From contig JAMPHU010000003.1 of assembly GCA_023663225.1 (NCBI GenBank), forward strand, positions 1-43,885: DNA of 43,885 nucleotides, read 5' to 3'. The stretch is from Candidatus Gastranaerophilales bacterium. GTDB lineage: Bacteria > Bacillota > Clostridia > Lachnospirales > Lachnospiraceae. Below are positions 28,981-42,622 of this stretch, in pieces; position 1 is the stretch's first letter; every line of letters begins with the position of its first letter. The position numbers were made by a program, and so were the translations under genes. A model generated the notes under the pieces. That model worked only from the letters and a program-made list of their open reading frames with translations. It was not told the DNA's origin and did no database searches.

Positions 28981-30024
28981 ATGGGAAAATACGATGATGC
29001 TTTGTACATGTATCTGTCAGATAACGACAGATTTGCGGATCTTTTTAATGCGGTACTGTTTCAGGGAGAACGGGTGCTCAGGGCGGATATGCTGGAGCCG
29101 GACTCGGAACGGTATGTGGATAACAGGGGGATTGCACCCAAAGGGAAGAAGGGGAAACGTCTTCCCGCTATGACAAACAGTTTCCGCGATATCAAAAAGC
29201 GTTTAAAGACCGGAGAAAGCTTTGTGGTGACTGCGATCGAGAACCAACAGGATGTGGATTACAGTATGCCCTGGCGGATTATGAACTATGACTGCCTGGA
29301 GTACGGAAGGCAGATCAAAGAGATTCAGAAGAGCAAACAAGCTGCGAGAAAGGCGGAGGGGATGTCCGCAAGTCATTGGGCGGAACGGCTGGAAAAAGGC
29401 GATCTGCTGCATCCTGTGTATACCATATGTTTTTACCACGGGACAGAAAGCTGGGACGGTCCGCGGAGCCTGAAGGATATGATGCGGTATGAGGACAGGA
29501 GGGGCGTATGGCAGGGATGTTTTCAGGACTATGGGATGCGTCTGTTTTGTGCCAACGAGGCCAAAGGTCTGGAAAATTTTCAGACGGAGCTCAAGCAGTT
29601 GTTGATGGTATTGCCGTTGCGGGAGGATAAGAACGCCTTGTCTGCGCTGTGGAACAGAGAGGAGTTTTCCCATCTGGAGAGAGATACGGTGGAAACAATG
29701 GCCGTTATGACGGACAATACGGAGATGTTGGATCGATTGGCAGAATATAAAGAGGAGGAAGGATACAGTATGTGCAAAGCGATGGAGGAACTAAAACGCG
29801 ACTGGAAAGAGGAAGGGATCGCGGAGGGAATTTCGGAAGGGATGAAACGGGGAATTGAACAAGGAATTGAACAAGGGATTACACAGGGAATCTTGCAAGG
29901 AATTGTTTTAACGATAGACAATTTCATGCAAAAACTGCCCTGTTCCTTGGAGAAAGCTTGTGAGATAGCAGGGAAGACTCCCGAGGAATATCACAGGATA
30001 AAGCAGATGTTGAATCATGCATAA
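28981..30024 (+). CDS. Rpn-family recombination-promoting nuclease (PD-(D/E)XK)
   Basis: 347 residues. The core matches the Rpn/putative-transposase nuclease family: D70 followed by the GESFVVTAIENQ strand (E87, Q89) and DYSMPWRIMNYDCLEYGRQI. E. coli Rpn proteins promote RecA-independent recombination and cut DNA. Residues ~275-310 form a run of GI(x)(E/Q)G repeats (GIAEGISEGMKRGIEQG), which is common at the end of these proteins and prone to length change. These genes multiply in Lachnospiraceae genomes. A two-component system begins 53 bp downstream with no terminator between, so read-through is possible. Confidence 0.85.
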   Translation: MGKYDDALYMYLSDNDRFADLFNAVLFQGERVLRADMLEPDSERYVDNRGIAPKGKKGKRLPAMTNSFRDIKKRLKTGESFVVTAIENQQDVDYSMPWRIMNYDCLEYGRQIKEIQKSKQAARKAEGMSASHWAERLEKGDLLHPVYTICFYHGTESWDGPRSLKDMMRYEDRRGVWQGCFQDYGMRLFCANEAKGLENFQTELKQLLMVLPLREDKNALSALWNREEFSHLERDTVETMAVMTDNTEMLDRLAEYKEEEGYSMCKAMEELKRDWKEEGIAEGISEGMKRGIEQGIEQGITQGILQGIVLTIDNFMQKLPCSLEKACEIAGKTPEEYHRIKQMLNHA

Positions 30025-30077: not shown

Positions 30078-30800
30078 ATGCTTAGAATTGCAGTATGTGA
30101 CGATGAAGAACTTTTTCTGAATAGAATCGTTCATTCCATCAAAAACGGAATAGATCAGCATGGACTCAGCGCTTATGAGATCACCCCTTTTTTGTCAGGG
30201 AAGGACTTGTTGGAAAGCAGCAGAACTGTGGAGTATGGAGCTATTTTTTTGGACATCAACATGCCGGAAGATAACGGTTTAGAGATTGCTCAAAAAATAA
30301 GAGAGAGCGGGAAGGATATTATTCTTGTATTTATCACCAGCTTTATGGATTATGCCATAGAGGGTTATAAGGTGGAGGCAATGCGCTTTGTGCTCAAGGA
30401 TGTGTTGGACGAGGTAATGCCGGAATGTATAGACGCTATTATCAGAAAATTGGATCTGCAGGCACACAAAGTAAAGTATGATTTTGTGGAAGGAAAAAGA
30501 GAAATCGCTGTTGATAGTATCTGGTTGATAGAAAGCGAACTGCACAAATTATATTTTTATATTTCAGGGCAGAAGTCGCCTCAATACAGCCTTTACGGGA
30601 AATTGGATCATATGGAGTCGGAATTGTGTTCTTATAGCTTTTTGCGGATACACAAAAGCTTTCTTGTAAATACCAAGTATATTGATAAAATTGCAAATTA
30701 TAAGGTTTATTTGAAAAATGAAAAGATATTGCCGGTTCCCAAAGAAAAGTTTAAAGAGGTTCGAGAAAGATATTATGAAATGATGGGTGAATTGCTATGA
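30078..30800 (+). CDS. LytTR response regulator 1 (AgrA/ComE-like)
   Basis: 240 residues from ATG 30078, behind GGAGGGAG; a GTG at 30027 keeps the frame open but lacks a ribosome site. The receiver domain (~1-125) has the acidic pair D8/D9 and phospho-acceptor D59 (FLDINMP). The LytTR DNA-binding domain (~140-238) shows FLRIHKSFLVNTKYIDKI, its usual core. LytTR regulators bind paired direct repeats about two helical turns apart. Such repeats occur at 32203-32239, 37169-37204, 40230-40265 and, weakly, near 40604. The gene overlaps the kinase gene by four bases. Confidence 0.93.
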   Translation: MLRIAVCDDEELFLNRIVHSIKNGIDQHGLSAYEITPFLSGKDLLESSRTVEYGAIFLDINMPEDNGLEIAQKIRESGKDIILVFITSFMDYAIEGYKVEAMRFVLKDVLDEVMPECIDAIIRKLDLQAHKVKYDFVEGKREIAVDSIWLIESELHKLYFYISGQKSPQYSLYGKLDHMESELCSYSFLRIHKSFLVNTKYIDKIANYKVYLKNEKILPVPKEKFKEVRERYYEMMGELL

Positions 30801-32050
30801 TCTATTTTGTACAGGCGTGTATGTTGACTTTGATCGAAGCATTAAGTTGTAAAATTTTTTGTGATGTTTTCTTGCAAAAGAAGGATGATAGCGGTAAATG
30901 GAAGTCGCTCCTGTATTTTGGTATGCTGTTGGCTGGTTTTATGGCGATTGCGCTTTTTTCCTTTCATAGCTATATATGGAAAGCGTTGGCCACTATTATC
31001 GTGATCAGTGTAGTGACATATTTGCAGTATAAGGGGAATTGGCTGCAGATCATTTTCCTTTCCATAGGATATTATGGCTTACTGGTTTGTATTGACAGAA
31101 TTATGATCCTTGTGTTTCCGGTTACGATAGTTGTTGCGCTATTGTCCAAGGCTGTCTTATTTTTGCTGATTATTCTTTTCAGTAAAACACTCAAACCCAA
31201 AGGCAGTCTTAATCTGATAACAAATAAAGAGTGGCTTCATTTTCTTTTCTTTCCGATGATTACCGTGATCTGCATGACGGCCTTTGCGGTTGAGGGAGGT
31301 TCAGGATATGCCTTGCTTATCGTTTCTTTTGCGCTGATATTTTCTAATTATCTCGTGTTTTATATGATTCGGGATGTGGTAGCGCAGGAAAAAGAGATTC
31401 AGGAAATGCTCGTTTCACAGGAAAGAATCCGGAACCAGTTAAATATGCACCGGCAGATCGAAAGTGTTTATGAGGAACAGCGAAAAAAGGCACATGAGTT
31501 TAAAAATTCCATGAATTGTCTGCATGGGTTGCTGAAAACGAAAAATTATCGGGAAGCGGAAGCCTACATAGAGAAAATCAACCATAATTGGATCGAGGAA
31601 ATAGATTATATCAATACGAACCATGCTGTGATAAACAGTGTTCTCAACCAAAAGATCAAATATGCCAAAAAGAAGGGGATCCCGATTTTGTTTGTTGTCA
31701 ACAATTTGGAGAATGTGCGAATGGCAGATACGGATTTGGTCACTTTGCTTTCTAATCTTTTAGACAATGCCATAGAAGCGTGTGAAAAAATAGCGACGGG
31801 TTCTAAGGTGATCAAAATGCGGTTCGTAGATGAAAATGGGAAAGTGGTGATTTCCGTCAGAAATCCGGTTGCGGAACCGTTGAAGTATCAGGGAGATACA
31901 TTAGTGACTTCTAAAAAAGAGGAAGCTGTTCATGGCATCGGTCTGGTAAATATACAAAATGTTGTGAGTAAATATGGTGGTGAAAATATCTGGAGCTGCC
32001 ATGACGGGTATTTTACGCATAGCGTTGTTTTGGATTTTCGCGGGCTATAA
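30797..32050 (+). CDS. GHKL sensor histidine kinase 1 (AgrC-like)
   Basis: 417 residues. About six membrane helices fill residues 1-190, followed by a coiled linker and the kinase. H233 in KKAHEFKNSMNCLHGLL is the likely phospho-accepting histidine. The ATP-binding GHKL part has its N box at LLSNLLDNAIEACE (N324) and a G box at GIGLVNIQNVV. This layout is that of AgrC-type peptide receptors; no AgrB/AgrD-like genes are visible, so the ligand is unknown. ATGA overlap with regulator 1 indicates a single operon. Confidence 0.92.
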   Translation: MIYFVQACMLTLIEALSCKIFCDVFLQKKDDSGKWKSLLYFGMLLAGFMAIALFSFHSYIWKALATIIVISVVTYLQYKGNWLQIIFLSIGYYGLLVCIDRIMILVFPVTIVVALLSKAVLFLLIILFSKTLKPKGSLNLITNKEWLHFLFFPMITVICMTAFAVEGGSGYALLIVSFALIFSNYLVFYMIRDVVAQEKEIQEMLVSQERIRNQLNMHRQIESVYEEQRKKAHEFKNSMNCLHGLLKTKNYREAEAYIEKINHNWIEEIDYINTNHAVINSVLNQKIKYAKKKGIPILFVVNNLENVRMADTDLVTLLSNLLDNAIEACEKIATGSKVIKMRFVDENGKVVISVRNPVAEPLKYQGDTLVTSKKEEAVHGIGLVNIQNVVSKYGGENIWSCHDGYFTHSVVLDFRGL

Positions 32051-32088
32051 ACCAAGGGCTATGCCCGCTCTCTGATATACGATATATT

Positions 32089-32120
32089 CGGCGGATGCTG
32101 CGATGATCAGCAGACCGCCG
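32089..32120 (+). other. Hairpin downstream of kinase 1
   Basis: CGGCGG-at-GCTG (32089-32100) pairs with CAGC-aga-CCGCCG (32108-32120). A smaller GGGC-TAT-GCCC lies just upstream. No T tract follows. The right arm is repeated at about 40138-40148, where the left arm is missing. Confidence 0.45.
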
Positions 32121-32122
32121 AT

Positions 32123-32185
32123 TTCTGCATTTTACCACCGTTTTCTGCAATGGCTATTTATGTTTGAAGATATGTATTGTATAAT
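32123..32185 (+). promoter_or_regulatory. Distal promoter with TTCTGCA direct repeats (copy A)
   Basis: TTCTGCA occurs at 32123-32129 and 32143-32149, exactly 20 bp apart. A TATAAT at 32180-32185 lies downstream with a weak TTTATG 17 bp before it. Geometry suits an activator binding two turns of DNA, and the sequence differs from the CTTGTG repeats downstream. Confidence 0.45.
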
Positions 32186-32202
32186 CCAATCAATACCATA
32201 GA

Positions 32203-32271
32203 ACCACTTGTGACAAAAAAAAGACCACTTGTGCCAAAATGATTGAAAAAAAGAAAAGATTAAGATATGCT
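32203..32271 (+). promoter_or_regulatory. Candidate LytTR-activated promoter, module 1
   Basis: Direct repeats ACCACTTGTGACAAAA (32203-32218) and ACCACTTGTGCCAAAA (32224-32239) are 21 bp apart. The second ends three bases before TTGAAA (32243-32248), followed by a 17-bp spacer and TATGCT (32266-32271). Adjacent direct repeats two helical turns apart next to a weak -35 is the known arrangement for AgrA/ComE-type regulators. It drives paralogue 1 and probably the lipoprotein, regulator 2 and kinase 2. Confidence 0.75.
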
Positions 32272-32398
32272 CCTGACAGAGGGAAAATGATGTAATGTAT
32301 ATTGTCAAGAGATGGTGTATGTTAGCCGATATAAGCAATATAGTAGACACGAGCAAATGGAATTGCGATACAGAATCAACGGATGGAGGTATTTTGAT

Positions 32399-33619
32399 AT
32401 GAAGATCAGAGCAATCACAATGGACGCCGCGAATATGACGGTGCAGCAAAACAATCAGAGAGGTCGGCAGCAGGGTCAGACAGGGAACAATATGTTCTCT
32501 CCTCGGTACAAGGTCACGATCTCGAAGGAAGGGAGAGAACTCAGCAGACAGTATTCATCACGCACAGTGGAAAATACCCCTAGCCTTAGAGAAGAAAAGA
32601 AACTGCTCCGCCAGCAGGATCAGGATGAATTGCAGAAAGATATCAGACAGGGGTATCGTGAGGAATTGAAAAGTATTGAAGATGAAATCAGCGCGTTGAA
32701 TCGTTCTGTTTTGGATCAAGATACCTTGAACAAAAGAACGCAAGATGTGATCGATGTTATGGACAGTCAGAGAGATATTCAGGCGGAAGAGAATGAGAGA
32801 CGTTTGAAGGAAGCGCAGGAGCTGGCCATGCAAGCTGCCGGCTATCAGGAAGAGGTAGATGAGAATAACAGAGATTTGGTGATGCTGCTCAAGACCATGG
32901 AAGAGGCGGAAAAAGCGGAGGAAGAGCGGGAAAGCGGTGAGATCAGTGTGGAGCATAAAGGCGGTGTCTTGCCAGACACAGACATTTCTGAGAGCAGTTT
33001 GATCAAAGATTCCGCAGTGCAGCTTGCGACGTCCTCTCTTGAGCGGGAATCCCGCGTGATGGATGGTTACGCTGATCGAATGAAGGAAGGACAGCAGCTT
33101 ATCAAAACGGCGGATCAGATCACGCAGAATGTCATTGCGGAAGGTAAAAACATCAATGCTTCTCTTGAGGAGGACAATTACGCAGACGCTGAGATAGTAG
33201 AGTCGATGAACGTTTATCGCAACAGTATGGAGATCAATTATAAAGATGTGGAAGATGCCAGAGAAGAGGGGCAACTGATCATGCATGATGCGACCATAGA
33301 AAAGAAGGTGCATCTAAAGAATAACCCTCTGGGAGGCTTGTCGGCAACGGAGCGAAGTATGATGTGGATTGCAGCGGATACCGCGGTCAATGAGGCGGCG
33401 GATAATCGCCTTAGCGAGGGGAGCAGAGATCTTGCGAAAGAAGCGCAGAAATTGATCGACGAGCGCAACAGTTTAGACAGGATCCAGCAAAACAGAGAAG
33501 AAGTGAAAGAAGAGCAGGAGGAAGAGGCAAAAGAGGAACAGGAGAAAGGATTGAGCGGGAGTATCCAGGCAGACGATACGCAAACAGAAACCATTCAGGC
33601 GGAGAGTATTTGGAAATAA
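32399..33619 (+). CDS. Charged coiled-coil protein of unknown family, paralogue 1
   Basis: 406 residues from ATG 32399, where GGAGGT is well spaced; a conserved in-frame ATG lies 45 nt upstream without a good ribosome site. There is no signal peptide or membrane segment, so it is probably cytoplasmic. Conserved in all three copies: MKIRAITM(N/D)AANM at the start, MFSPRYKV(T/S)ISKEGR at about 32-46, a long helical region with AMQAAGYQEEVDENNRDL (~144-160) and MEEAEKAEEERE, NPLGGL (~309-314), and KLIDERNSLDR (~351-361). The tail is Glu/Lys-rich. I recognise no known domain. Twelve bases separate it from the lipoprotein gene, so they share an operon. Confidence 0.75.
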   Translation: MKIRAITMDAANMTVQQNNQRGRQQGQTGNNMFSPRYKVTISKEGRELSRQYSSRTVENTPSLREEKKLLRQQDQDELQKDIRQGYREELKSIEDEISALNRSVLDQDTLNKRTQDVIDVMDSQRDIQAEENERRLKEAQELAMQAAGYQEEVDENNRDLVMLLKTMEEAEKAEEERESGEISVEHKGGVLPDTDISESSLIKDSAVQLATSSLERESRVMDGYADRMKEGQQLIKTADQITQNVIAEGKNINASLEEDNYADAEIVESMNVYRNSMEINYKDVEDAREEGQLIMHDATIEKKVHLKNNPLGGLSATERSMMWIAADTAVNEAADNRLSEGSRDLAKEAQKLIDERNSLDRIQQNREEVKEEQEEEAKEEQEKGLSGSIQADDTQTETIQAESIWK

Positions 33620-33631
33620 AAGGACATAGGT

Positions 33632-35104
33632 ATGAAAAAAGCTGCAAAAAGAAGTTTGCGTTATCTCATAGTCTTTCATTTGCTTTGTCTCCTCCTGGCA
33701 GGTTGTGGGACAAAGGATTCCAGCACTTCCATCAATAGTGGGGATGGACAGAACAGTGTTGCAGAAGAACCGGCGGTAGGCGTCATCGATGGTGAGGATG
33801 GGCAGCCTCGTATTACGGATAATCCTGCCTATTACCCCTTGGGGCGTCAAGTGTTGACGGTGGTAGTCACATATGCGAGCCGTGAAACGCTAGATCGGAT
33901 CAAAACCTTTAATGAAAATAGTACCTCTTACTTTGTTGAGATAAAGAGTTACGGGGAGCATTGGGCAGGTGCGGATGCGGCTGAGAATCTGGAGACACAG
34001 CTCACGCTTGAGATTTTATCCGGCAAAGGCCCCGATTTGGTGATATGGGACTATTACTTATATTCTCCGACTATGGCATCAGAAAAGTTGATGGAAAATC
34101 TATATGACTATATGAATGAGGATTCGGATTTCCACAGAGAAGATTACTATGAGAATATTTTGCAGGCATTTGAAATTAACGGCGGTTTGTATACGCTTCC
34201 CGTTTCCTTTACAATATCGACCGTGTGTGGAAAAGCGGAAGAGCTGGGAACCGGCCGAGGTGTCACGGAAAGCTGGGAGATCGGGGAAATGATAGAGGCC
34301 TTTGAAAATAGTCCTCATGCGGAGTGGCTCACTTCTAATCACACGAAGTCAACCACATTCCTTTATATGTGTGAAGGGTGTATTGGGAATTATATAGACT
34401 GGGGAAGCGGAGAATGTTATTTTGATACGCCGGAGTTCATAGAATTACTGGAATTTTGCAATACTTTTTCGGCCCAATCGATGTTTGGAGAAGATTATTC
34501 TTATTATGAAACCCTGCGCAGCGGAAAAGTTTTTTGGGAACCCACTAATTTAAGCACTCCCTGGTATGTGGCGAGTCATAGGATTAGCTTTGGAGAGGAT
34601 TTGCTTTGGCCGGGGTTTCCGGTGGCAGATGGAGAAAAAGCTATGGGCGGAGGTGTGGCAAGGCCTGAGGGAGAGTGCTTTTCCATATGTAAAAACAGCG
34701 ATAATCAGGAAGCCGCGTGGGAGTTCATCAAATATTATCTTACGGAGGACATGCAGAGGGAGGCGGCAGGCATCCCGCTTCTGCGATCTGCATCTGAGGA
34801 GAGAATACAAGAGCTGCTGACGATAGAGTATGAAACGATAGATGGCATAGAGCAGGAGAAAGTCCGATATGAGGTCATAGCAGAAGAAGAGGATACCGTA
34901 GGATTATCCTGTATCACGGAGCATGATGCGGAAATATACCGCAGTATTATTGAGAACACGCACCGCAGCACTGGCAATGACACCGGCATAATAAATATTA
35001 TCCTGGAGGAGGCAGAATCCTATTTTGAGAATGATAAGGATGCTGCCACGGCAGCGGATATTATCCAGAACCGTGTCAGTATATATGTCAGTGAACGGAT
35101 GTAA
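33632..35104 (+). CDS. Extracellular solute-binding lipoprotein (ABC type), orphan
   Basis: 490 residues. A lipoprotein signal ends at LLLAGC, with C25 as the lipidated cysteine. The mature part resembles family 1 extracellular solute-binding proteins (sugar or oligomer binders): YPLGRQVLTVVVTYASRETL, then LSGKGPDLVIWDYYLYSPTM near residue 130 and a C-terminal NQEAAWEFIKYYLTED. No permease or ATPase gene is nearby, and the gene lies between paralogue 1 and regulator 2. It may therefore deliver a signal to kinase 2 rather than support transport; that is inference. Confidence 0.82.
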   Translation: MKKAAKRSLRYLIVFHLLCLLLAGCGTKDSSTSINSGDGQNSVAEEPAVGVIDGEDGQPRITDNPAYYPLGRQVLTVVVTYASRETLDRIKTFNENSTSYFVEIKSYGEHWAGADAAENLETQLTLEILSGKGPDLVIWDYYLYSPTMASEKLMENLYDYMNEDSDFHREDYYENILQAFEINGGLYTLPVSFTISTVCGKAEELGTGRGVTESWEIGEMIEAFENSPHAEWLTSNHTKSTTFLYMCEGCIGNYIDWGSGECYFDTPEFIELLEFCNTFSAQSMFGEDYSYYETLRSGKVFWEPTNLSTPWYVASHRISFGEDLLWPGFPVADGEKAMGGGVARPEGECFSICKNSDNQEAAWEFIKYYLTEDMQREAAGIPLLRSASEERIQELLTIEYETIDGIEQEKVRYEVIAEEEDTVGLSCITEHDAEIYRSIIENTHRSTGNDTGIINIILEEAESYFENDKDAATAADIIQNRVSIYVSERM

Positions 35105-35162
35105 TAAGGACGGATAAGATCAATCTGTTTGAGAAGGGCGAGATCACAGGAGGATGGCAGGC

Positions 35163-35867
35163 GTGATCAATATAGCAATCATAGATGACGATCAGGAATT
35201 TTTGGATCGATTAGAAGGGATTGTTCAAAAATATATGGAAGGGAAGGAAGTAAACGCAAAAGCGGATTTCTTCTCCAGTGCAGCGCAGCTTTTGGCATGT
35301 GAGATGCAATACGATCTCTATTTGCTGGATGTGGAAATGCCGGAGATGGACGGGATGACTCTGGCAGGACGGCTTCGTGAAAAATTTGGCGGCGGGGCGG
35401 ATATTGTATTTATAACAATCCATGACCAGGCCGTATACACCGCGTTTCAATACGACATCTATGGTTTTATCAGAAAAACATATCTGGAAAAAGACTTTGA
35501 AGAAACCATGGAACGTTTTATAAAGAAGTGGATTAACAAAAATAAGGTATTCCCGTTAAAGACCAAGATCGGCGTGATCTATAAAGCGGAGAGCGATATC
35601 ATCTATGCTGAGAAATTTGGACATGAAATGATCCTCTATTGCGTTGACGGAAAGTATATTTTGCGGAGCAGTATAGAGGAGTTGGCGGAGAAGGTACAAA
35701 AGGCGCATTTTGTCAAACCGTATAAGGGATATCTGGTAAACTGTCTTTATATCAAGAAGATAGAAACCGATCAGATTATTTTGGATGACGGCAGAAAGAT
35801 ACCCGTGAGCAGACGCAGTAAAAATGAAGCGCAAGAGGTGTTTTTTGCATATTTGAACAAGGGGTGA
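35163..35867 (+). CDS. LytTR response regulator 2
   Basis: 234 residues from GTG 35163, nine bases after AGGAGG (35148-35153). The ATG at 35154 touches that site and is less likely. Receiver: acidic residues D8-D10 and phospho-acceptor D56 (LLDVEMPEMDGM). The LytTR domain (~135-232) has FVKPYKGYLVNCLYIKKIE. It is diverged from regulator 1, so the two may read different operators; the locus holds two distinct repeat types (CTTGTG and TTCTGCA). Four bases separate it from kinase 2. Confidence 0.92.
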   Translation: MINIAIIDDDQEFLDRLEGIVQKYMEGKEVNAKADFFSSAAQLLACEMQYDLYLLDVEMPEMDGMTLAGRLREKFGGGADIVFITIHDQAVYTAFQYDIYGFIRKTYLEKDFEETMERFIKKWINKNKVFPLKTKIGVIYKAESDIIYAEKFGHEMILYCVDGKYILRSSIEELAEKVQKAHFVKPYKGYLVNCLYIKKIETDQIILDDGRKIPVSRRSKNEAQEVFFAYLNKG

Positions 35868-35871
35868 GAAG

Positions 35872-37167
35872 ATGGGGGCTGCATTTGAAGTATTTGCAAA
35901 TTTACTGGAGTCGGTGATCATAGCGCAATTCTACATGCGGTATTTGGGGTGTAAAGAAAAATATAACAAATGGCTTGTCGCTGCTGTGTTGGTCATTTCA
36001 CATTTTGTGGCAGTCAGCATTGTAAATCAAATCTCCTTTTTCAGCGTCTATGGAGATTATTTTCTTGATTTTGTGTGTATTGCAGCAATTATATGTCTGC
36101 TCAAGGGAAGCGTGGGAGAAAAGCTTTTTTTGCATGGATTGCGAAATATATTCGTAAAAACGACGATACTTCTGTTATATAATTTCTTCCATGAGTGGAT
36201 GGTCTATGATGCAGATGGATATATGGTCTTTGGTGCGGCCCGTGTGGTTATGGTTCTGTTTGTCAAGACTTCTGAATGGATATTCTATGAGCTGTTGATA
36301 CGGAGCAAAAAGCGTGAGAAGGTTTCCGTTGATAACAAATTGTTTTTGGGTTTGGATGCCATGGTGTGGACTACAGAAATAGCGGGGGAGTTTCTGCTGG
36401 ACATATATTATGCCGCAGCATACGGCGACTACATACAGAGCGAAGTGCTTGTAGTCACGGTTGCGTCGCTGATCTCGAATATCGTTGTCTATGTCATGTG
36501 CGTGAAGTTGGTCAACAACAATGCGGATTTGGTAAAGGAAAAACTGAAAAACGCTGCATATGAGAGCCGCATGAAAGATGTCAATGCGGCGATAGATTTA
36601 CATAGACAGACCATGAAGATTCGCCATGATATGAAGAATGAGCTGTTAAAAGTCAGAATCAGGCTTGAGGAACAGAAAGTGGACGAAGCGGGCGCCTATC
36701 TGGAAGAAATCTTAAATGTCAAGCTGGCGGAGACGCAGATCGTTTTTACGGAAAATATGTTGGTAGACACGGTTATCAACACATGTATGGAAACGGCTAA
36801 GAATAAGGGGATTGCTGTAGATGCAAAGGTGCAAGGCAGAATCGGCAAAATTGAAGAAATGGATATGGCGATCCTGTTGTCCAATTTGTTGGATAATGCC
36901 ATAGAGGCCGCCGAAAAAACGCAGGAGAAACGAATTGAAATTCGGATGGAAAACCGGAAGGAGTATCTGTGCATTATGATCAGTAATTCTTACAATGGAG
37001 AAATTAGAAAAGATGAGTCGAAATTGGCCACGACGAAGCGGGATAAAGAATTTCATGGTTATGGACTGTCCAACGTGAAAGATATCGTCCAAAAGTACAA
37101 TGGCAACTATCAGTGTGAGATGCAGGAGAAAGAGTTTGTGACAAGCGTCAATCTATATATATCATAG
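35872..37167 (+). CDS. GHKL sensor histidine kinase 2
   Basis: 431 residues with about six membrane helices in residues 1-215. The histidine box is MKIRHDMKNELLKVRIRL with H252, the N box ILLSNLLDNAIEAAEK with N342, and the glycine box GYGLSNVKDIVQKYNG. It is the AgrC-like partner of regulator 2. Its last bases touch promoter module 2, whose first repeat begins two bases after the stop codon. Ligand unknown. Confidence 0.92.
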   Translation: MGAAFEVFANLLESVIIAQFYMRYLGCKEKYNKWLVAAVLVISHFVAVSIVNQISFFSVYGDYFLDFVCIAAIICLLKGSVGEKLFLHGLRNIFVKTTILLLYNFFHEWMVYDADGYMVFGAARVVMVLFVKTSEWIFYELLIRSKKREKVSVDNKLFLGLDAMVWTTEIAGEFLLDIYYAAAYGDYIQSEVLVVTVASLISNIVVYVMCVKLVNNNADLVKEKLKNAAYESRMKDVNAAIDLHRQTMKIRHDMKNELLKVRIRLEEQKVDEAGAYLEEILNVKLAETQIVFTENMLVDTVINTCMETAKNKGIAVDAKVQGRIGKIEEMDMAILLSNLLDNAIEAAEKTQEKRIEIRMENRKEYLCIMISNSYNGEIRKDESKLATTKRDKEFHGYGLSNVKDIVQKYNGNYQCEMQEKEFVTSVNLYIS

Positions 37168-37168
37168 A

Positions 37169-37236
37169 ACCGCTTGTGCCAAAATATGACCGCTTGTGCC
37201 AAAGTGATTGAAAAAAAGAAAAGATTTAGCTATGCT
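37169..37236 (+). promoter_or_regulatory. Candidate LytTR-activated promoter, module 2
   Basis: Repeats ACCGCTTGTGCCAAAA (37169-37184) and ACCGCTTGTGCCAAAG (37189-37204) are 20 bp apart, then TTGAAA (37208-37213), a 17-bp spacer and TATGCT (37231-37236). The following ~130-nt leader is nearly the same as that of paralogue 1. The TTCTGCA pair seen at modules 1 and 3 is absent here. Confidence 0.75.
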
Positions 37237-37367
37237 CCTGACAGAGGGAAACCAATGATGTAATGTATATTGTCAAGAAATGGTATATGTTAGCCGATAT
37301 AAACAATATAGTAGATACCGAGCAAATGGAATTGCGATATAAAATCAACGGATGGAGGTATTTTCAT

Positions 37368-38603
37368 ATGAAGATCAGAGCAATCACAATGAATGCCGCG
37401 AATATGGCGGTGCAACAAAACAATCAGAGAAGCCGACAGCAGGATCAAACAGTGAACAATATGTTCTCTCCCCGCTACAAGGTCTCGATCTCGAAGGAGG
37501 GGAGAGACCTCAGCAGGCAGCAGTCGTCTCACTCAGAGGAAGCTTCCCATAGTGTCAGGGCGGAAAAGAAGTTGATTCGTCAGCAGGAGGAGGACGAGCG
37601 GCAGAAAAGCATCCGGCAGGGATACCGTGCGGAATTAAAGAATATTGAAGGTGAGATCAGCTCTTTGAACCGTACCACTGACATGGAAGAGGAGAAAGAT
37701 ATCACCATCGAGAAAAAGCAGCAGGTGCTCAGAGCTATGAGAAACCAGAAGGAGCTCCAGGCGGCGGAAGAGGAAAGGCGGGCGAAAGAAGCACAGCAGT
37801 TGGCCATGCAGGCGGCCGGATATCAGGAAGAAGTAGATGAAAATAACAGAGATTTGGTGACGCTGCTCAAGACCATGGAAGAGGCAGAAAAATCGGAGGA
37901 AGAGCGGGAGAGCGGTGAGATTGACGTTGAGAATAACGGAGTCGCCGCGTCCGACGCAGACGGATCCGCGAGCGATATGATCCAAGGTTCGGCATCTCAG
38001 CTAATGATCTCTTCCGTCAATCGTGAATGGGATGTGCAGGAGAAGCTTGCCAGACACGGGAACGAAGGGCATCAACTTTTGGACATGGCGGATTCCATTA
38101 CCCGAGGCGTTATTGAAGAGGGTCAAAATATCATGGCGGCTCTTGACGATGAGACTTTCAGCGATGATGAGATAGACCGCTTGATGGAGATCTATCGGAA
38201 AAATATGGGCGTGAATTATGACGATGTGGAATACAATCGGAAGTATGGCTTACAGATTCTACGCGATGCGAGAGAAATGAAGATAGAGCATATAGCGGAT
38301 AATCCTTTGGGCGGTATGTTGCGAACGAAAAACAGCATCATCATGTCCGCAGCAGATGCCGCAGTCAGCGGGATGGCGGATGAACATATCGACAAAGCGT
38401 CTCAGGGTCTTGCTGAGGAAGCGCAGAAATTGATCGACGAGCGCAACAGTTTGGATAGGCTTCAGCAAAACAGAGATGAAATGAAAGAAGAGCAGGAGGA
38501 AGAGGCAAAAGAGGAAAAAGTAAAAGAAGAACAGGAGAAGGGATTGAGCGAGAATACCCAGGCAGAAGAGATTCCGACAGAAGGTATTCAAACAGAAAGA
38601 TGA
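37368..38603 (+). CDS. Charged coiled-coil protein of unknown family, paralogue 2
   Basis: 411 residues from ATG 37368 behind GGAGGT. It has the same architecture as paralogue 1: MKIRAITMNAANMAVQQN, MFSPRYKVSISKEGRDLSRQ, AGYQEEVDENNRDL, NPLGGM and KLIDERNSLDR. The middle (after ~residue 180) is more diverged than the ends. The tail repeats KEEQEEEAKEEKVKEEQEKG and ends with EEIPTEGIQTER. It is followed by a strong terminator, so it is transcribed alone from module 2. Probably cytoplasmic; function unknown. Confidence 0.75.
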   Translation: MKIRAITMNAANMAVQQNNQRSRQQDQTVNNMFSPRYKVSISKEGRDLSRQQSSHSEEASHSVRAEKKLIRQQEEDERQKSIRQGYRAELKNIEGEISSLNRTTDMEEEKDITIEKKQQVLRAMRNQKELQAAEEERRAKEAQQLAMQAAGYQEEVDENNRDLVTLLKTMEEAEKSEEERESGEIDVENNGVAASDADGSASDMIQGSASQLMISSVNREWDVQEKLARHGNEGHQLLDMADSITRGVIEEGQNIMAALDDETFSDDEIDRLMEIYRKNMGVNYDDVEYNRKYGLQILRDAREMKIEHIADNPLGGMLRTKNSIIMSAADAAVSGMADEHIDKASQGLAEEAQKLIDERNSLDRLQQNRDEMKEEQEEEAKEEKVKEEQEKGLSENTQAEEIPTEGIQTER

Positions 38604-38621
38604 AGAATTTCTACAATTTGC

Positions 38622-38672
38622 AAAAGGCTATGGCAGCATATGTCATGGCCTTTTATCTTGTTTTTTATGTCG
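38622..38672 (+). terminator. Rho-independent terminator after paralogue 2
   Basis: AAGGCTATG (38624-38632) pairs with CATGGCCTT (38644-38652) over 9 bp, followed by TTATCTTGTTTTTT. Confidence 0.85.
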
Positions 38673-38700
38673 AAGTACCGCAAATGAGAGATATCTTTAA

Positions 38701-38787
38701 ATTGCCGAAGTTCTAATATTGACTTATTTTTATTTGTTACATATACTTATATTACAACTTCGGCAATAAATATAAAAAGTGCCGAAA
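38701..38787 (+). promoter_or_regulatory. abiE promoter flanked by an inverted-repeat operator
   Basis: TTGACT (38719-38724), a 17-bp spacer and TATACT (38742-38747) lie between the 12-bp arms ATTGCCGAAGTT (38701-38712) and AACTTCGGCAAT (38756-38767), which are perfect inverted repeats. A further half-site GCCGAA is at 38781-38786. AbiEi antitoxins are known to repress their own promoters by binding inverted repeats, so this is the likely autoregulatory operator. Confidence 0.8.
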
Positions 38788-38805
38788 ATATAATGAGGTG
38801 ATACT

Positions 38806-39612
38806 ATGGATATGAAAGATGTTATTGAATACCTGCCTACAAATGAAAGTTTTACAAAGCAACAGTTCAGCAGTATGGTAAGGGAAGCAAATGCCGATTA
38901 TTCAGAAAGTTCTGTTTCTTGGCTGCTATCAGAACTAAAGAGGGAGCAGAAGATTGCTAGTATTGGGCGGGGAGTATATGTCCGTGTTACAGAGGAAGGT
39001 AAAAAAAAGAAATACCATTATGACCACCTCGAAGCATATCTGGAAATTGAGCAGGCAGTCAGCCAGGAATTTCCGCTTGCTCAGTTCCAGATGTGGGAAA
39101 TGTATCAGATGAATGAATTTGTGAACCATTTATTTGGAAAAAACACGATATTTGTGGAAGTGGAAAATATGTGTGAGGCTCCGGTATTTGAAATGCTGCA
39201 TGAAAGATTTCCGGATGTGTTATTTTGTCCGGATAAGGATATGTATTACAGGCAGCGGAGAAATGATGATACGGTAGTGGTCCAGAAGCTGGTTTCAGAA
39301 GCACCCAAACCTGTTACAGGACATTCCGCTCCTTTGGAGAAGCTGCTTGTGGACCTGTTTTCAAAAAAGCTGACGGGTAGGCTGGTCAGTAGAAGCGAGT
39401 ACAAGGGAATTTATGAGGATACGTTTTCAAGGTACAGCATTGATGAGACGAAAATGTTTCGGTATGCAAGGCGGAGGCATCTGGAAACAGAGATAAAGAC
39501 ATTCTTGAGGGAAAAAACAAACGTGGAATTAAAATACAATCAGGAGGGAAGACATGCTTTCAAAGGAGATATTTACACTGGAGTACATCAGGGGGTTACA
39601 GAAATGGTATAA
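38806..39612 (+). CDS. AbiEi-type (type IV) antitoxin with winged-helix domain
   Basis: 268 residues. The N-terminal ~70 residues read as a winged helix (FTKQQFSSMVREANADYSES, then SWLLSELKREQKIASIGRGV and YVRV). The remainder resembles AbiEi-like/DUF6577 antitoxin proteins. Such antitoxins neutralise the AbiEii nucleotidyltransferase without direct binding and repress the operon. The reading frame is intact. Its 3' end overlaps the toxin start by 59 bases. Base composition is AT-richer than the neighbours, which suits horizontal arrival. Confidence 0.8.
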   Translation: MDMKDVIEYLPTNESFTKQQFSSMVREANADYSESSVSWLLSELKREQKIASIGRGVYVRVTEEGKKKKYHYDHLEAYLEIEQAVSQEFPLAQFQMWEMYQMNEFVNHLFGKNTIFVEVENMCEAPVFEMLHERFPDVLFCPDKDMYYRQRRNDDTVVVQKLVSEAPKPVTGHSAPLEKLLVDLFSKKLTGRLVSRSEYKGIYEDTFSRYSIDETKMFRYARRRHLETEIKTFLREKTNVELKYNQEGRHAFKGDIYTGVHQGVTEMV

Positions 39613-40133
39613 GAAAGATCCAGGGCTGCTAGAAAGGGTCATGTATGCTTTTGGACTGTTGGAGGCACTGGTGCAGGTGGGGATGAAGTTTGTTTTTAAG
39701 GGTGGAACCAGCCTTCTCCTGCTCACCGAGCATCCGCTGAGATTGTCCACGGATATTGACATTACGGAAAGGGGTTTTTTATATTTTGCTGGACATAGTA
39801 TTTATGGAAAACCCATATACTACCCTGGTGGAGCGGAAGATACAGAATGACATCCTGCTCACTATAGGGGAGCCGTCAAAGATAATAATGCCAAGCGCAG
39901 ACTGTATCTTAGGAGATAAAATGACGGCATTTGCACCCCACACAATAGGAATCCCGATAGGGATAGGGAAAGAGCTGGAAATCATGAAACAACTGTATGA
40001 TGTAACAACCCTGTCAGAGATATCTACAAACCAGCAGGAATTGTGGGAGACGTATGACAAGGTGGCAGCGGAAGAAATTGCTTTTCGAGATATCGCAGAA
40101 GACAGAGACAGTGTGTTGCGGCTGCTAGAATGA
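39554..40133 (+). pseudogene. Broken AbiEii-type nucleotidyltransferase toxin gene
   Basis: The start has a good site (AGGAGGG) and the frame encodes the nucleotidyltransferase signature FVFKGGTSLLLL then RLSTDIDI, ending at TGA 39848-39850. The rest of the family sequence continues in another frame from about 39770: FYILLDIVFMENPYTTLVER, PSADCILGDKMTAFAPHTIG and EIMKQLYDVTTL, ending at 40133. AbiEii proteins are usually about 250-300 residues. Roughly 80 residues expected between the DxD strand and FYILLDI are absent, so this is an internal deletion with a frameshift. The C-terminus is also short and stops where the duplicated promoter segment begins. The toxin is very probably inactive. Confidence 0.8.
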
Positions 40134-40297
40134 TTGGCAGACCGCCGATTTCTGCATTTTACCACCATTTTCTGCAATGGCTGTTTTTGTTTGATGATTT
40201 GTATTGTATAATCTAATCGACACCATAGAATCACTTGTGCCAAAAAAAGACCGCTTGTGCCAAATCTGTTGAAAAAATGAAAAGATTAGGCTATGCT
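40132..40297 (+). repeat. Duplicated regulatory segment, copy B, with promoter module 3
   Basis: This copy matches 32106-32271. It has the TTCTGCA pair (40150-40156 and 40170-40176, 20 bp apart) with TATAAT at 40207-40212. It also has the CTTGTG pair ATCACTTGTGCCAAAA (40230-40245) and ACCGCTTGTGCCAAAT (40250-40265), then TTGAAA (40269-40274), a 17-bp spacer and TATGCT (40292-40297). Its left border coincides with the truncated end of the abiEii pseudogene. Confidence 0.8.
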
Positions 40298-40315
40298 CTT
40301 GAAAAGGAGGGGTTT

Positions 40316-40480
40316 ATGAATGTAAATCTCTATACAACAAATATAGCGGGTAATATTCGGTATATGTCAGAACTTTGTATGCAGATATTGCGCAGCGTAG
40401 CGGAGGGCAAAGGCGGAAATGTATTGGGAGATACAAAGGAGAGCGCGGTCGAATTGCCCGAAACGCGATGGAGAATTTGA
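40316..40480 (+). CDS. Small protein (54 residues) under promoter module 3, possibly frameshifted
   Basis: ATG 40316 follows AAGGAGGGG and a full LytTR-type promoter module. The product begins MNVNLYTTNIAGNIRYMSEL and has no signal peptide; it belongs to no family I know and is unlike the three paralogues. After about residue 38 another frame stays open to TGA at about 40542 and encodes a plausible helical tail (RIARNAMENLSNIDGFNERM). A one- or two-base indel may therefore have cut a ~75-residue protein short. Confidence 0.55.
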   Translation: MNVNLYTTNIAGNIRYMSELCMQILRSVAEGKGGNVLGDTKESAVELPETRWRI

Positions 40481-40584
40481 GTAATATAGATGGCTTTAAC
40501 GAAAGGATGCGCCGACAGCGCGAGAAGGAGTATCGTTTTTGAAAAGTTTATATCCTATGTGGGGGTACAAGGAGAATGATTGGA

Positions 40585-40618
40585 ATTACTTATGTTCAAA
40601 AAGACCGCTTGTGCAAAT
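40585..40618 (+). promoter_or_regulatory. Decayed LytTR promoter module 4
   Basis: One good repeat, ACCGCTTGTGCAAAT (40604-40618), is preceded 19 bp earlier by a poor one, ATTACTTATGTTCAAA (40585-40600). A TTGAAT follows, but no TATGCT-like -10 lies 17 bp downstream. It precedes paralogue 3, which may instead depend on read-through from module 3. Confidence 0.55.
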
Positions 40619-40735
40619 CGATTGAATAAAGAAAAAGGGATTCAAAAATCGAGCTGACTGACCGATATCAATAATATATTAGATACTAAGCAAATGGAAT
40701 TGCGATACAAACTCAACGGATGGAGGTATTTTGAT

Positions 40736-42091
40736 ATGAAGATCAGAGCAATCACAATGAACGCCGCGAATATGGCGGTACAGCAGAACACGCAGAGAAA
40801 CCAGTATCAGGCGCAATCTGCGGGCAGTATGTTCTCTCCCCGCTACAAGGTTTCGATCTCGAAGGAGGGGAGAGACCTCATCAGGCAGCAGTCGTCTCAC
40901 GCAGGGGAGAACGCGCAGAGCGCTCAGAGCATCAGCACACAGAGGAAACTCTTCCGCCAGCAGGATCAGGATGAATTGCAGGAAGATATCAGACAGGGGT
41001 ATCATGCGGAACTGAGGGACATTGAGGAGGAAATCAAGGAAGCGAACCGTGCCGCTTTAAATAGCGACAACCTGGATCAGAGAACGCAGGATTTGATCAA
41101 TGTCATGAACAGCCAGAGGGATCGCCAGGCGGAAGAGACGGAGAGACGTCTGAAGGAAGCGCGGGAGTGGGCCATGCAGGCTGCCGGATACCAGGAAGGG
41201 ATAGAGGAAAACAACAGAGACCTGGTGATGCTGCTCAGGACTATGGAAGAGGCGGAAAAAGCGGAAGAAGAGCGGGAAAACGGTAAGGCTCGTGTTGAGA
41301 ATGACGACAGTGCGCCTGATTTTGGTATGCCCATAAACAAGTTTATCAAAGGTTCTGCGACTCAGTTTGTGACGTCTTCGCTGAAACGGGAATCGCTCGT
41401 GATGGATGGCTATGCCAATGAAAAGCAGGCAGGACATCGGTTCATCAGGATGGCGGATCAGATCACGCAGAATGTCATCGCGGGAGCTGAGCGCGTTAAG
41501 GACTCTTTTGATGAGGAAAATTACACAGACGAAGAAATAGCGAAAGAGATGAGCGCTTATCGCAGAGGGATAGGAAAAAGCGATAAGGATGTGGAAGATA
41601 TCCGGAAAGAGGGACAACTGATCCTGCATGATGCGACTATAGAAAAGTTGGTGCATATAAAGAATAATCCGTTGGGAGGCCTGTTGGCAGCCAAGCAGAG
41701 CATGATGTTGACAGCAGCGGATTCCACTGTCAATCAGACAGTAAACAATCATCTCGTGGAGGGATCCGGAGAGATCGCAGAGGAAGCGCAGAAATTGCTC
41801 CATGAACGCCATAGTTTGGATAGGATCCGTCAAAGCAGAGAAGAACAGAAGGAAGATCAGGAAGAAGTAAAGGAGGAAAAGGCAAAAGAAGAACAGGTAA
41901 AAGAGGAAGAAGCAAAAGAGAAAGAGGTAAGCGAAGAAGTAAAAGAGGAAAAAGCAGAAGAGAAAGAGGTAAAACAAGAACGGGAGAAGCGATTAAGCGA
42001 GAATATCCAGACAGAAGGTATTCAAACGGAAGGGATTCAGGCGGCAACAATTCAGGCAGAGGGTATTTTGGCAGCCTCAGATGCTATGTGA
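40736..42091 (+). CDS. Charged coiled-coil protein of unknown family, paralogue 3
   Basis: 451 residues from ATG 40736 behind GGAGGT. It shares MKIRAITMNAANMAVQQN, MFSPRYKVSISKEGRDLIRQ, AMQAAGYQEGIEENNRDL, NPLGGL and an altered KLLHERHSLDR with paralogues 1 and 2. The C-terminal tail is the longest of the three: about 50 residues of KEE/KEK/EVKEE repeats and then a five-residue repeat, IQTEG-IQTEG-IQAAT-IQAEG-ILAAS. This is the sign of repeat-driven length change. No membrane segment. A terminator follows directly. Function unknown. Confidence 0.75.
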   Translation: MKIRAITMNAANMAVQQNTQRNQYQAQSAGSMFSPRYKVSISKEGRDLIRQQSSHAGENAQSAQSISTQRKLFRQQDQDELQEDIRQGYHAELRDIEEEIKEANRAALNSDNLDQRTQDLINVMNSQRDRQAEETERRLKEAREWAMQAAGYQEGIEENNRDLVMLLRTMEEAEKAEEERENGKARVENDDSAPDFGMPINKFIKGSATQFVTSSLKRESLVMDGYANEKQAGHRFIRMADQITQNVIAGAERVKDSFDEENYTDEEIAKEMSAYRRGIGKSDKDVEDIRKEGQLILHDATIEKLVHIKNNPLGGLLAAKQSMMLTAADSTVNQTVNNHLVEGSGEIAEEAQKLLHERHSLDRIRQSREEQKEDQEEVKEEKAKEEQVKEEEAKEKEVSEEVKEEKAEEKEVKQEREKRLSENIQTEGIQTEGIQAATIQAEGILAASDAM

Positions 42092-42098
42092 GCGTAGT

Positions 42099-42138
42099 AA
42101 AACCGGAGTGGAGCGATCATGTTTTCACTCCGGTTTTT
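42099..42138 (+). terminator. Rho-independent terminator after paralogue 3
   Basis: AAACCGGAGTG (42100-42110) and CACTCCGGTTT (42126-42136) form an 11-bp perfect stem followed by TTTTT. Confidence 0.9.
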
Positions 42139-42622
42139 GGATTTCACTCTCTTTTCCGAGAATCCAGAGTTCTATGCGATTTATCAACTTCGTAGCGAAA
42201 AAAACACGATATATAGTGACAAACTGCGTTTACATGTGGTAAACTTAAAGCAGATAGAATTGGCGACGGAAGAGGACAAGAGATACCATATTGATCAATG
42301 GGCCGCCCTCTTCAAAGCGACCACATGGGAGGAGATCAAAATGTTGGCACGACAAAATGAGTATATCAGGGATGCGTCCGAGACCATATATCGCCTCAGT
42401 CAGGAAGAGCAGATTCGGATGCAATGTGAGGCGCGGGAAGAGTATTACCGCAGACAGAACAAGATACAGAAACTATTGGCGGAGCAAGAGGAGACAATCG
42501 GGCAGCAAAAAGAGCAATTATCAGAGCAAGAGGCCTTCATAAAACAACAGGCAGCTCTTCTCGAGGAGCAAGAGCGAGAACTGGAAAAGTTGCGCTTGGA
42601 AATGTCCCAATACAAAAAGTAG
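42119..42622 (+). pseudogene. N-terminally truncated Rpn/PD-(D/E)XK nuclease remnant
   Basis: 167 codons. From about codon 7 it reads like the C-terminal half of an Rpn/PD-(D/E)XK family transposase-nuclease: FLDFTLFSENPEFYAIYQLR, YSDKLRLHVVNLKQIEL, WAALFKATTWEEIKMLAR and REEYYRRQNKIQKLL, then a Gln/Glu-rich coiled coil. The catalytic N-terminal half is missing. The only ATG lies inside the loop of the paralogue 3 terminator and has no ribosome site, so it is probably not expressed. It belongs to a different subgroup from the intact gene at 28981. Confidence 0.7.

Follow-up and report, generated by a model that had tools for sequence, protein, structure and literature searches.

The stretch analyzed here (the window, 43,885 nt of the forward strand of contig JAMPHU010000003.1, assembly GCA_023663225.1, which is part of contig C45 of a genome, G000, that is 94.5% complete) carries three paralogous genes, designated PAR1, PAR2 and PAR3, together with two response regulator/sensor kinase pairs of the LytTR/GHKL type. 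PAR homologues share an mRNA leader that resembles the one of flagellin genes, which makes the PARs look like members of the flagellar regulon. We consider it probable that the PARs are late flagellar-regulon genes of a new family under CsrA-type translational control, to which two-component control would have been added in the window's own genome.

The conserved part of the upstream region among PAR homologues was found to be the 50 nt preceding the start codon. In this part, GCAAAYGGAATTGC folds into a hairpin with the six-base loop A-Y-G-G-A-A, an ANGGAN hexaloop (GCAA-AYGGAA-UUGC), and a second GGA, contained in UCAAYGGA beside the Shine-Dalgarno sequence UGGAGG, lies exactly 22 nt on in 16 of 18 leaders; only locus L026 (genome G273) and a short variant in genome G500 deviate. 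Of 17 PAR-type leaders, 13 have the ANGGAN-loop hairpin, located at −41 to −43, and the three of the window are among them; of the 14 full-length ones, 13 have it. The leader of L026 keeps the stem, with the loop ACGGGG and a 3-nt insertion between both motifs. Among ten homologues, mean pairwise identity was 91% over the first 10 nt of the hairpin (8 of which served as the anchor) and 65–66% over the next 30 nt, compared with 24–34% in the blocks between 160 and 21 nt ahead of the hairpin, 40–49% in the last 20 nt, and 63% falling to 43% in the first 60 nt of the coding region. Coding conservation was rejected as the source of this leader conservation because the reading frame is not kept, the loop starting at −41, −42 or −43.

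When the 138 genomes of the genus were searched for the pattern CAAAYGGAATTGC-N4-20-AAYGGA, 10 distinct places in 7 genomes were found, every one directly before a PAR gene, and the reversed control gave 0. Such specificity for PAR genes, like the nearly fixed spacing of 22 nt, would also be expected if the repeated AAYGGA were not a CsrA site but an operator in the DNA, spaced by two turns, or an RNA element to which PAR itself binds. We hold this to be unlikely, given that L026 has an insertion of 3 nt between the motifs and that the same ANGGAN loop occurs on unrelated stems in flagellin leaders (see below); the outer stem pair also varies mostly within pairing combinations (U-A in 8 leaders, C-G in 2, U-G in 2, A-U in 1 and unpaired in 4), a weak argument in the same direction.

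Nuclear magnetic resonance structures of the CsrA homologue RsmE are reported bound to an ANGGAN-loop hairpin, and CsrA is described there as a repressor of glgC that bridges a hairpin of this kind and the Shine-Dalgarno sequence (PMC7652899). The leader of C. jejuni flaA is described as carrying two ANGGA hexaloops at a distance of 21 nt, the second at the ribosome site (PMC4894983). Given these published CsrA hairpin sites, the flagellin leaders of the PAR genomes were examined: the search gave 40 places, 30 loci were returned, 24 were used, and the start was found in 21. An ANGGAN hairpin was present at −33 to −41 in 11 of 12 leaders of MVVQHN-type flagellins, often on quite dissimilar stems (GCCGC/GCGGC, CAGC/GCUG), and that of a flagellin in the window's own genome (G000:C107), GCAA-ACGGAU-UUGC, is near-identical to the PAR hairpin. 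In a control list of 235 leaders, 18 had the hairpin; 7 remain once the PARs (7 rows) and the flagellins (4 rows) among them are set aside.

A covariance model trained on PAR leaders alone was run over 46 sources (469 kb). It recovered all 17 training leaders and one unseen leader before the broken PAR copy of G500 (E 3.6e-12), and at E ≤ 1 it found five distinct non-PAR places, three of which are leaders lying at the start codon of a flagellin gene (L105, L103 and L096; E 0.043, 0.29 and 0.79). Flagellin genes are present in all ten PAR genomes and CsrA in nine of them; a FliW gene is present in both genomes looked at, G273 and the window's own, where it stands directly before CsrA. By analogy with the published sites, CsrA is predicted to bind the PAR leader.

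The flagellar promoter boxes of Butyrivibrio fibrisolvens are given as TAAA and MCGATAa (PMC3720852). The box [AC]CGATA was found at −72 to −87 in 11 of 18 PAR leaders, but between −95 and −65 in just 1 of 213 control genes. Among MVVQHN-type flagellins, 9 of 12 had it within 300 nt, most with TAAA about 16 bp earlier, versus 27 of 213 controls. Box scoring gave at least 10 of 12 for 9 of 17 PAR upstream regions, where shuffles predicted 0.9.

Several observations weigh against a CsrA-controlled flagellar-regulon gene. Stem covariation is weak, single measures being reached by 5 to 252 of 500 column shuffles, and the Shine-Dalgarno-proximal site forms a hairpin in 11 of 17 leaders, none of the window's three among them. 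Minimum-energy folds contained the first hairpin in 10 of the 12 leaders folded (absent for L028a and L033), and that of the G000:C107 flagellin leader closes the loop to four bases. Other flagellin-like leaders had the hairpin in just 1 of 9. The flagellin matches of the covariance model are weak (E 0.04–0.8), and the best non-PAR match, L099 (E 0.036), lies away from any flagellin start, as does L029 12979. The control genes were placed by mechanical open reading frame (ORF) starts. As for the promoters, 7 of 18 PAR leaders are without a CGATA box, and 10 of the 128 rows in the control list for box scoring also reach 10 of 12, 5 of those being PAR rows. Since the PAR −35 boxes are weaker than the flagellin ones and stand one base farther off, we grade the use of sigma-28 at PAR promoters only as likely. 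CsrA was not found in one PAR genome, G401 of the same genus, and the co-occurrence of flagella with PAR is weak evidence because flagella are so common in the family (FlhA is encoded by 110 of the 138 genomes of the genus and by 209 of the 397 sampled across the family).

Profile comparison with flagellar proteins gave no match either. The PAR profile reached hhalign probabilities of at most 0.5% against 11 protein groups of flagellar loci (2–5 sequences each), including flagellin and FlgM and groups that we take to be FlgK, FlgL, FlgN, FlaG, FliD, FliS and FliT, and an N-terminal PAR profile did not match FlgM (E about 3). By these two comparisons, PAR shows no profile relationship to the flagellin, cap, hook-associated, chaperone or FlgM groups, and flagellar homology was rejected. 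A likeness to FlgM, the anti-sigma-28 factor, was noticed by eye only, in the PAR N-terminus M[KR]IxA and in VxISxxGxxx near residue 36–41; unlike FlgM, PAR is about four times longer, and no profile match was significant.

Upstream of the window's PARs, a 79-nt promoter repeat occurs in three copies, at 32198, 37163 and 40224, which confirms the shared promoter architecture that the initial annotation had described before PAR1, PAR2 and a small ORF (54 aa) ahead of PAR3. This promoter, termed B, consists of two A[CT]CRCTTGTG copies with a start-to-start distance of 20 or 21 bp, followed by 9 bp, TTGAAA, 17 bp and TATGCT, and its tandem repeats of period 20–21 were unmatched by 100 shuffles each. 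PAR3 itself retains one half-site. In the window's own genome the exact promoter B pattern has 2 sites, before PAR1 and PAR2, the third copy being one base off, and the type A repeat ACCRCCGWTTTCTGCA has 2 sites at ≤3 mismatches, upstream of PAR1 and the small ORF only. The operators of the LytTR Regulatory System are described as direct repeats 11–13 bp apart that strongly tend to lie 10 bp ahead of the −35 box (PMC6193735), and the tandem repeats at PAR1, PAR2 and the small ORF, 9 bp ahead of it, agree with this geometry. Because promoters of the published geometry precede these genes, LytTR control of the paralogues is likely in this genome, and each of the two LytTR regulators may bind one of the two repeat types.

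The two AgrA/AgrC-like pairs of the initial annotation were borne out by family scans, RR1 and RR2 matching Response_reg and LytTR and HK1 and HK2 matching HATPase_c_5 (Table 1; the RR1 scan began at 30081, with the first Met left off), and so was its binding lipoprotein (33632–35104), which matches SBP_bac_1 and SBP_bac_8 and is called the SBP lipoprotein here. RR1 and RR2 share 26% identity. No AgrB match was obtained among the locus genes scanned, in line with the absence of AgrB noted before, AgrD-like short peptides being outside that scan. After a ribosomal-protein cluster, the genes are ordered RR1-HK1, PAR1, SBP lipoprotein, RR2-HK2, PAR2, an AbiE pair, the 54-aa ORF and PAR3. Judging from gene spacing, PAR1, the SBP lipoprotein, RR2 and HK2 are probably one operon. 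The 54-aa ORF has no Pfam match and is single-copy in its genome.

PAR is rare. Outside its own genome, a family-wide sample of 396 genomes gave it in 3 (G022, G184 and G273), and 137 other genomes of the genus gave it in 7, G022 among them, with pieces only in G500. In all, PAR was found in ten genomes of three genera. A scan of named genome contigs gave at least three PAR loci, two of them on the same contigs as in G401 and G453. A LytTR/GHKL pair was seen directly beside PAR in none of the 13 further PAR-bearing loci, although a contig end cuts off one flank close to PAR in L026, L031 and L035, and at no more than about 1.3 kb in L030; the nearest such pairs lie two genes off (L033), five genes off (L006) and about 8 kb away (L026). 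Repeats comparable to those of the window were absent upstream of the other PARs, the best having 11 of 14 matched bases with shuffle fractions of 0.03 (L033) and 0.04 (L037 variant). Given these outside loci and upstream regions, the LytTR link appears particular to the window's own genome.

These results bear on the proposal of the initial annotation that the locus is a signalling circuit with the PARs as its output. LytTR control is likely in this genome, as said, and this part stands; a defined LytTR system is not supported, since no adjoining LytTR/GHKL pair was seen in the 13 outside loci and no other PAR upstream region has comparable repeats. A dedicated LytTR/GHKL signalling system, with the PAR family as its defining output and flagella incidental, would account for two LytTR pairs inside the same 12 kb, for PAR1 ending 12 nt ahead of the SBP-RR2-HK2 genes, and for LytTR-type promoters that precede PAR1, PAR2 and the small ORF and, by the patterns tried, nothing else in the genome. 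However, it is largely refuted by the neighbourhood survey of the 13 other loci (four of them cut off at one flank close to PAR), where the leader, not the repeats, is the shared element, and we regard it as improbable.

Signalling genes of other kinds were close to PAR in 8 of the 13 outside loci, a raw count over the chosen neighbours that were scanned. M56 (BlaR1-type) genes lie within three genes of PAR or of a short variant in 5 of 13 (L027, L028, L029, L037 and a fragment in L035; likewise a raw count), and BlaI repressor genes lie near PAR in L027, L028 and L037. A histidine kinase is near PAR in L033, and in L036 a response regulator with a fused RelA/SpoT domain. In L006, L030, L031, L032 and L034, no such gene was seen among the neighbours scanned, if any. 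In L026 (319–5744), the genes after PAR encode a hybrid histidine kinase and an SBP lipoprotein, a second PAR-kinase-SBP grouping, whose kinase and lipoprotein have no resemblance to their window counterparts except for a receiver domain.

Returning to flagellar-regulon genes under CsrA-type control, we propose the following course. A sigma-28-type promoter about 75–100 nt upstream would transcribe the PARs alongside the flagellins. A CsrA dimer would bridge the leader hairpin and the second GGA 22 nt downstream at the Shine-Dalgarno sequence and block the ribosome, as on flagellin mRNA, and FliW, set free once the hook is complete and flagellin is exported, would remove CsrA and allow translation. 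In the window's own genome, one or both LytTR/GHKL pairs would add signal-driven transcription through the promoters with tandem LytTR-type repeats, the second pair probably sensing through the SBP lipoprotein of its operon. PAR protein is thus probably made together with flagella, while the filament is under construction, and more of it would be made with an outside signal. Expression along with the filament, boosted by LytTR control, would suggest that PAR acts in motility or at the flagellum, and our best guess is that PAR is a flagellum-associated accessory protein. We also entertain, as a speculative and rather unlikely extension, that PAR transcripts are signal-driven CsrA decoys, several LytTR-induced copies of a flagellin-like leader titrating CsrA and releasing flagellin or other targets. 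The two-component system would then act on the flagellar checkpoint by way of mRNA, and PAR would be a new flagellum-associated family.

PAR2 and PAR3 are 60 and 62% identical to PAR1, and on a dN/dS (ratio of nonsynonymous to synonymous substitution rates) of about 0.3 between paralogues (0.27/0.95, 0.22/0.77, 0.33/1.02) they are under purifying selection. The proteins consist of 49–50% DEKRQN residues with 3–4 prolines, and "coiled coil" would be a label drawn from this composition alone. No hydrophobic segment was detected (highest 19-residue Kyte-Doolittle mean 0.74), in keeping with the earlier statement that a membrane segment is missing. The same annotation had seen no recognised domain, and family scans agreed: NCBIfam gave nothing at E ≤ 1, PADLOC nothing at E ≤ 0.1, Pfam a single sub-threshold match to PAR1 only (E 0.064; 14.1 versus 23.6 bits required) and PHROGs a single match to PAR1 only (E 0.093), and a PDB search with the PAR profile gave nothing under E 0.7. 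We take the PARs to be a new protein family. A domain hunt with the first 54 PAR residues yielded, besides PARs, mainly 950–1180-aa proteins from many genus genomes (E 5e-4 to 0.05, positions 30–50) and was dropped as chance resemblance; two of six such loci, those on the strand read, are presumably the IF-2 C-terminus. Short proteins with the PAR N-terminus and leader and another remainder (L036, 7814–8341; L035, 6185–6730) form a second architecture of the family, L037 encodes a truncated protein with the PAR N-terminus, and the broken PAR copy of G500 is in pieces.

Membership in a known family such as phage structural proteins, which the initial annotation had named as the finding that would speak against it, did not emerge, PHROGs giving no significant match and phage records no match. 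A mobile-element or phage protein, structural or defensive, would fit the patchy distribution in the genus (7 of 137 other genomes), the transposase-family genes on both sides of the locus and the AbiE pair inside it. Against this, a tblastn search with PAR2 gave no match among 50,697 phage records and 72,556 plasmid records, no relative was found in IMG/VR, neither PHROGs nor PADLOC assigned a family, and the other PARs stand among ordinary chromosomal genes; this origin is therefore very improbable.

The proposed control resembles the CsrA-FliW-flagellin switch (B. subtilis hag, C. jejuni flaA) in the ANGGAN hexaloop hairpin, the second GGA over the Shine-Dalgarno sequence some 21–22 nt apart from it, the sigma-28-like box, and FliW and CsrA in the genome. 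It differs in that the gene behind the leader is neither flagellin nor a recognised flagellar gene and that the CsrA site is predicted from sequence. By the account of a 2020 review, flagellin control is the sole B. subtilis CsrA function described in detail (PMC7430163). Literature searches of open-licence papers, on subjects that included CsrA with Lachnospiraceae and flagellin, CsrA-FliW in Firmicutes or Clostridia, and Acetatifactor flagella, listed none that concerned such genes by title or abstract opening. With AgrCA/LytSR-type systems the locus shares a GHKL kinase beside a LytTR regulator and tandem repeats just upstream of −35; it departs from them in having no AgrB among the genes scanned, an SBP lipoprotein with the second pair, and two repeat types. 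The −35/−10 spacing of PAR promoter B is 17, unlike the suboptimal 18 and 20 given for agr P2 and P3 (PMC4227749). If the proposed control holds, flagellin-type leaders would extend to a second gene family, an unrelated one, PAR would be a new protein tied to filament assembly, and the locus would offer a natural case where outside signals may enter the flagellar checkpoint. The orphan PAR family would then become testable, in that it could be studied jointly with flagella.

Table 1 Features of the PAR locus, in positions of the window
Feature	Coordinates	Strand	Basis
RR1, LytTR response regulator	30078..30800	+	Response_reg 2.4e-14, LytTR 1.5e-16
HK1, GHKL sensor kinase	30797..32050	+	HATPase_c_5 9.6e-23
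LytTR-like tandem repeat type A, ACCRCCGWTTTCTGCA x2, period 20	32114..32149	+	14/16 positions repeated, 0/1000 shuffles equal
LytTR-type promoter B of PAR1, ACCACTTGTG x2, period 21; 9 bp; TTGAAA-17-TATGCT	32203..32271	+	pattern and shuffles
Sigma-28-like promoter of PAR1, TCAA-N16-GCCGATAT	32305..32332	+	box scoring
PAR1 leader, GCAA-AUGGAA-UUGC hairpin, second GGA 22 nt on, Shine-Dalgarno GGAGG	32353..32389	+	leader comparison
PAR1, 406 aa	32399..33619	+	ORF
SBP lipoprotein	33632..35104	+	SBP_bac_1 4e-10, also SBP_bac_8; starts 12 nt past PAR1
RR2, LytTR response regulator	35154..35867	+	Response_reg 1.1e-15, LytTR 1.2e-15
HK2, GHKL sensor kinase	35872..37167	+	HATPase_c_5 6.9e-27
LytTR-type promoter B of PAR2, ACCGCTTGTG x2, period 20; 9 bp; TTGAAA-17-TATGCT	37169..37236	+	pattern and shuffles
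Sigma-28-like promoter of PAR2, TCAA-N16-GCCGATAT	37273..37300	+	box scoring
PAR2 leader, hairpin, second GGA, Shine-Dalgarno	37322..37358	+	leader comparison
PAR2, 411 aa	37368..38603	+	ORF
LytTR-like repeat type A, second copy	40141..40176	+	pattern scan
LytTR-type promoter B before small ORF, ATCACTTGTG and ACCGCTTGTG, period 20; 9 bp; TTGAAA-17-TATGCT	40230..40297	+	pattern and shuffles
Small ORF, 54 aa	40316..40480	+	Shine-Dalgarno present, LytTR-type promoter upstream
Sigma-28-like promoter of PAR3, TCAA-N15-ACCGATAT	40642..40668	+	box scoring
PAR3 leader, hairpin, second GGA, Shine-Dalgarno	40690..40726	+	leader comparison
PAR3, 451 aa	40736..42091	+	ORF

Between PAR2 and PAR3 (38806–40133), an AbiEi-like gene (DUF6577; PADLOC AbiEi 9.9e-87) is followed by AbiEii broken into two pieces, a feature that the initial annotation had not mentioned. 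On either side of the locus lie a YhgA-like transposase-family gene (28981–30024) and a fragment of a PD-(D/E)XK transposase-family gene (42119–42622), both of which are perhaps traces of insertion next to the ribosomal operon. Elsewhere in the window, a VIT/VWA-domain protein is encoded at 1323–3353 (−), near a protein at 343–1185 (−) with an exosortase-like match slightly under the cut-off (24.9 of 25.7 bits).

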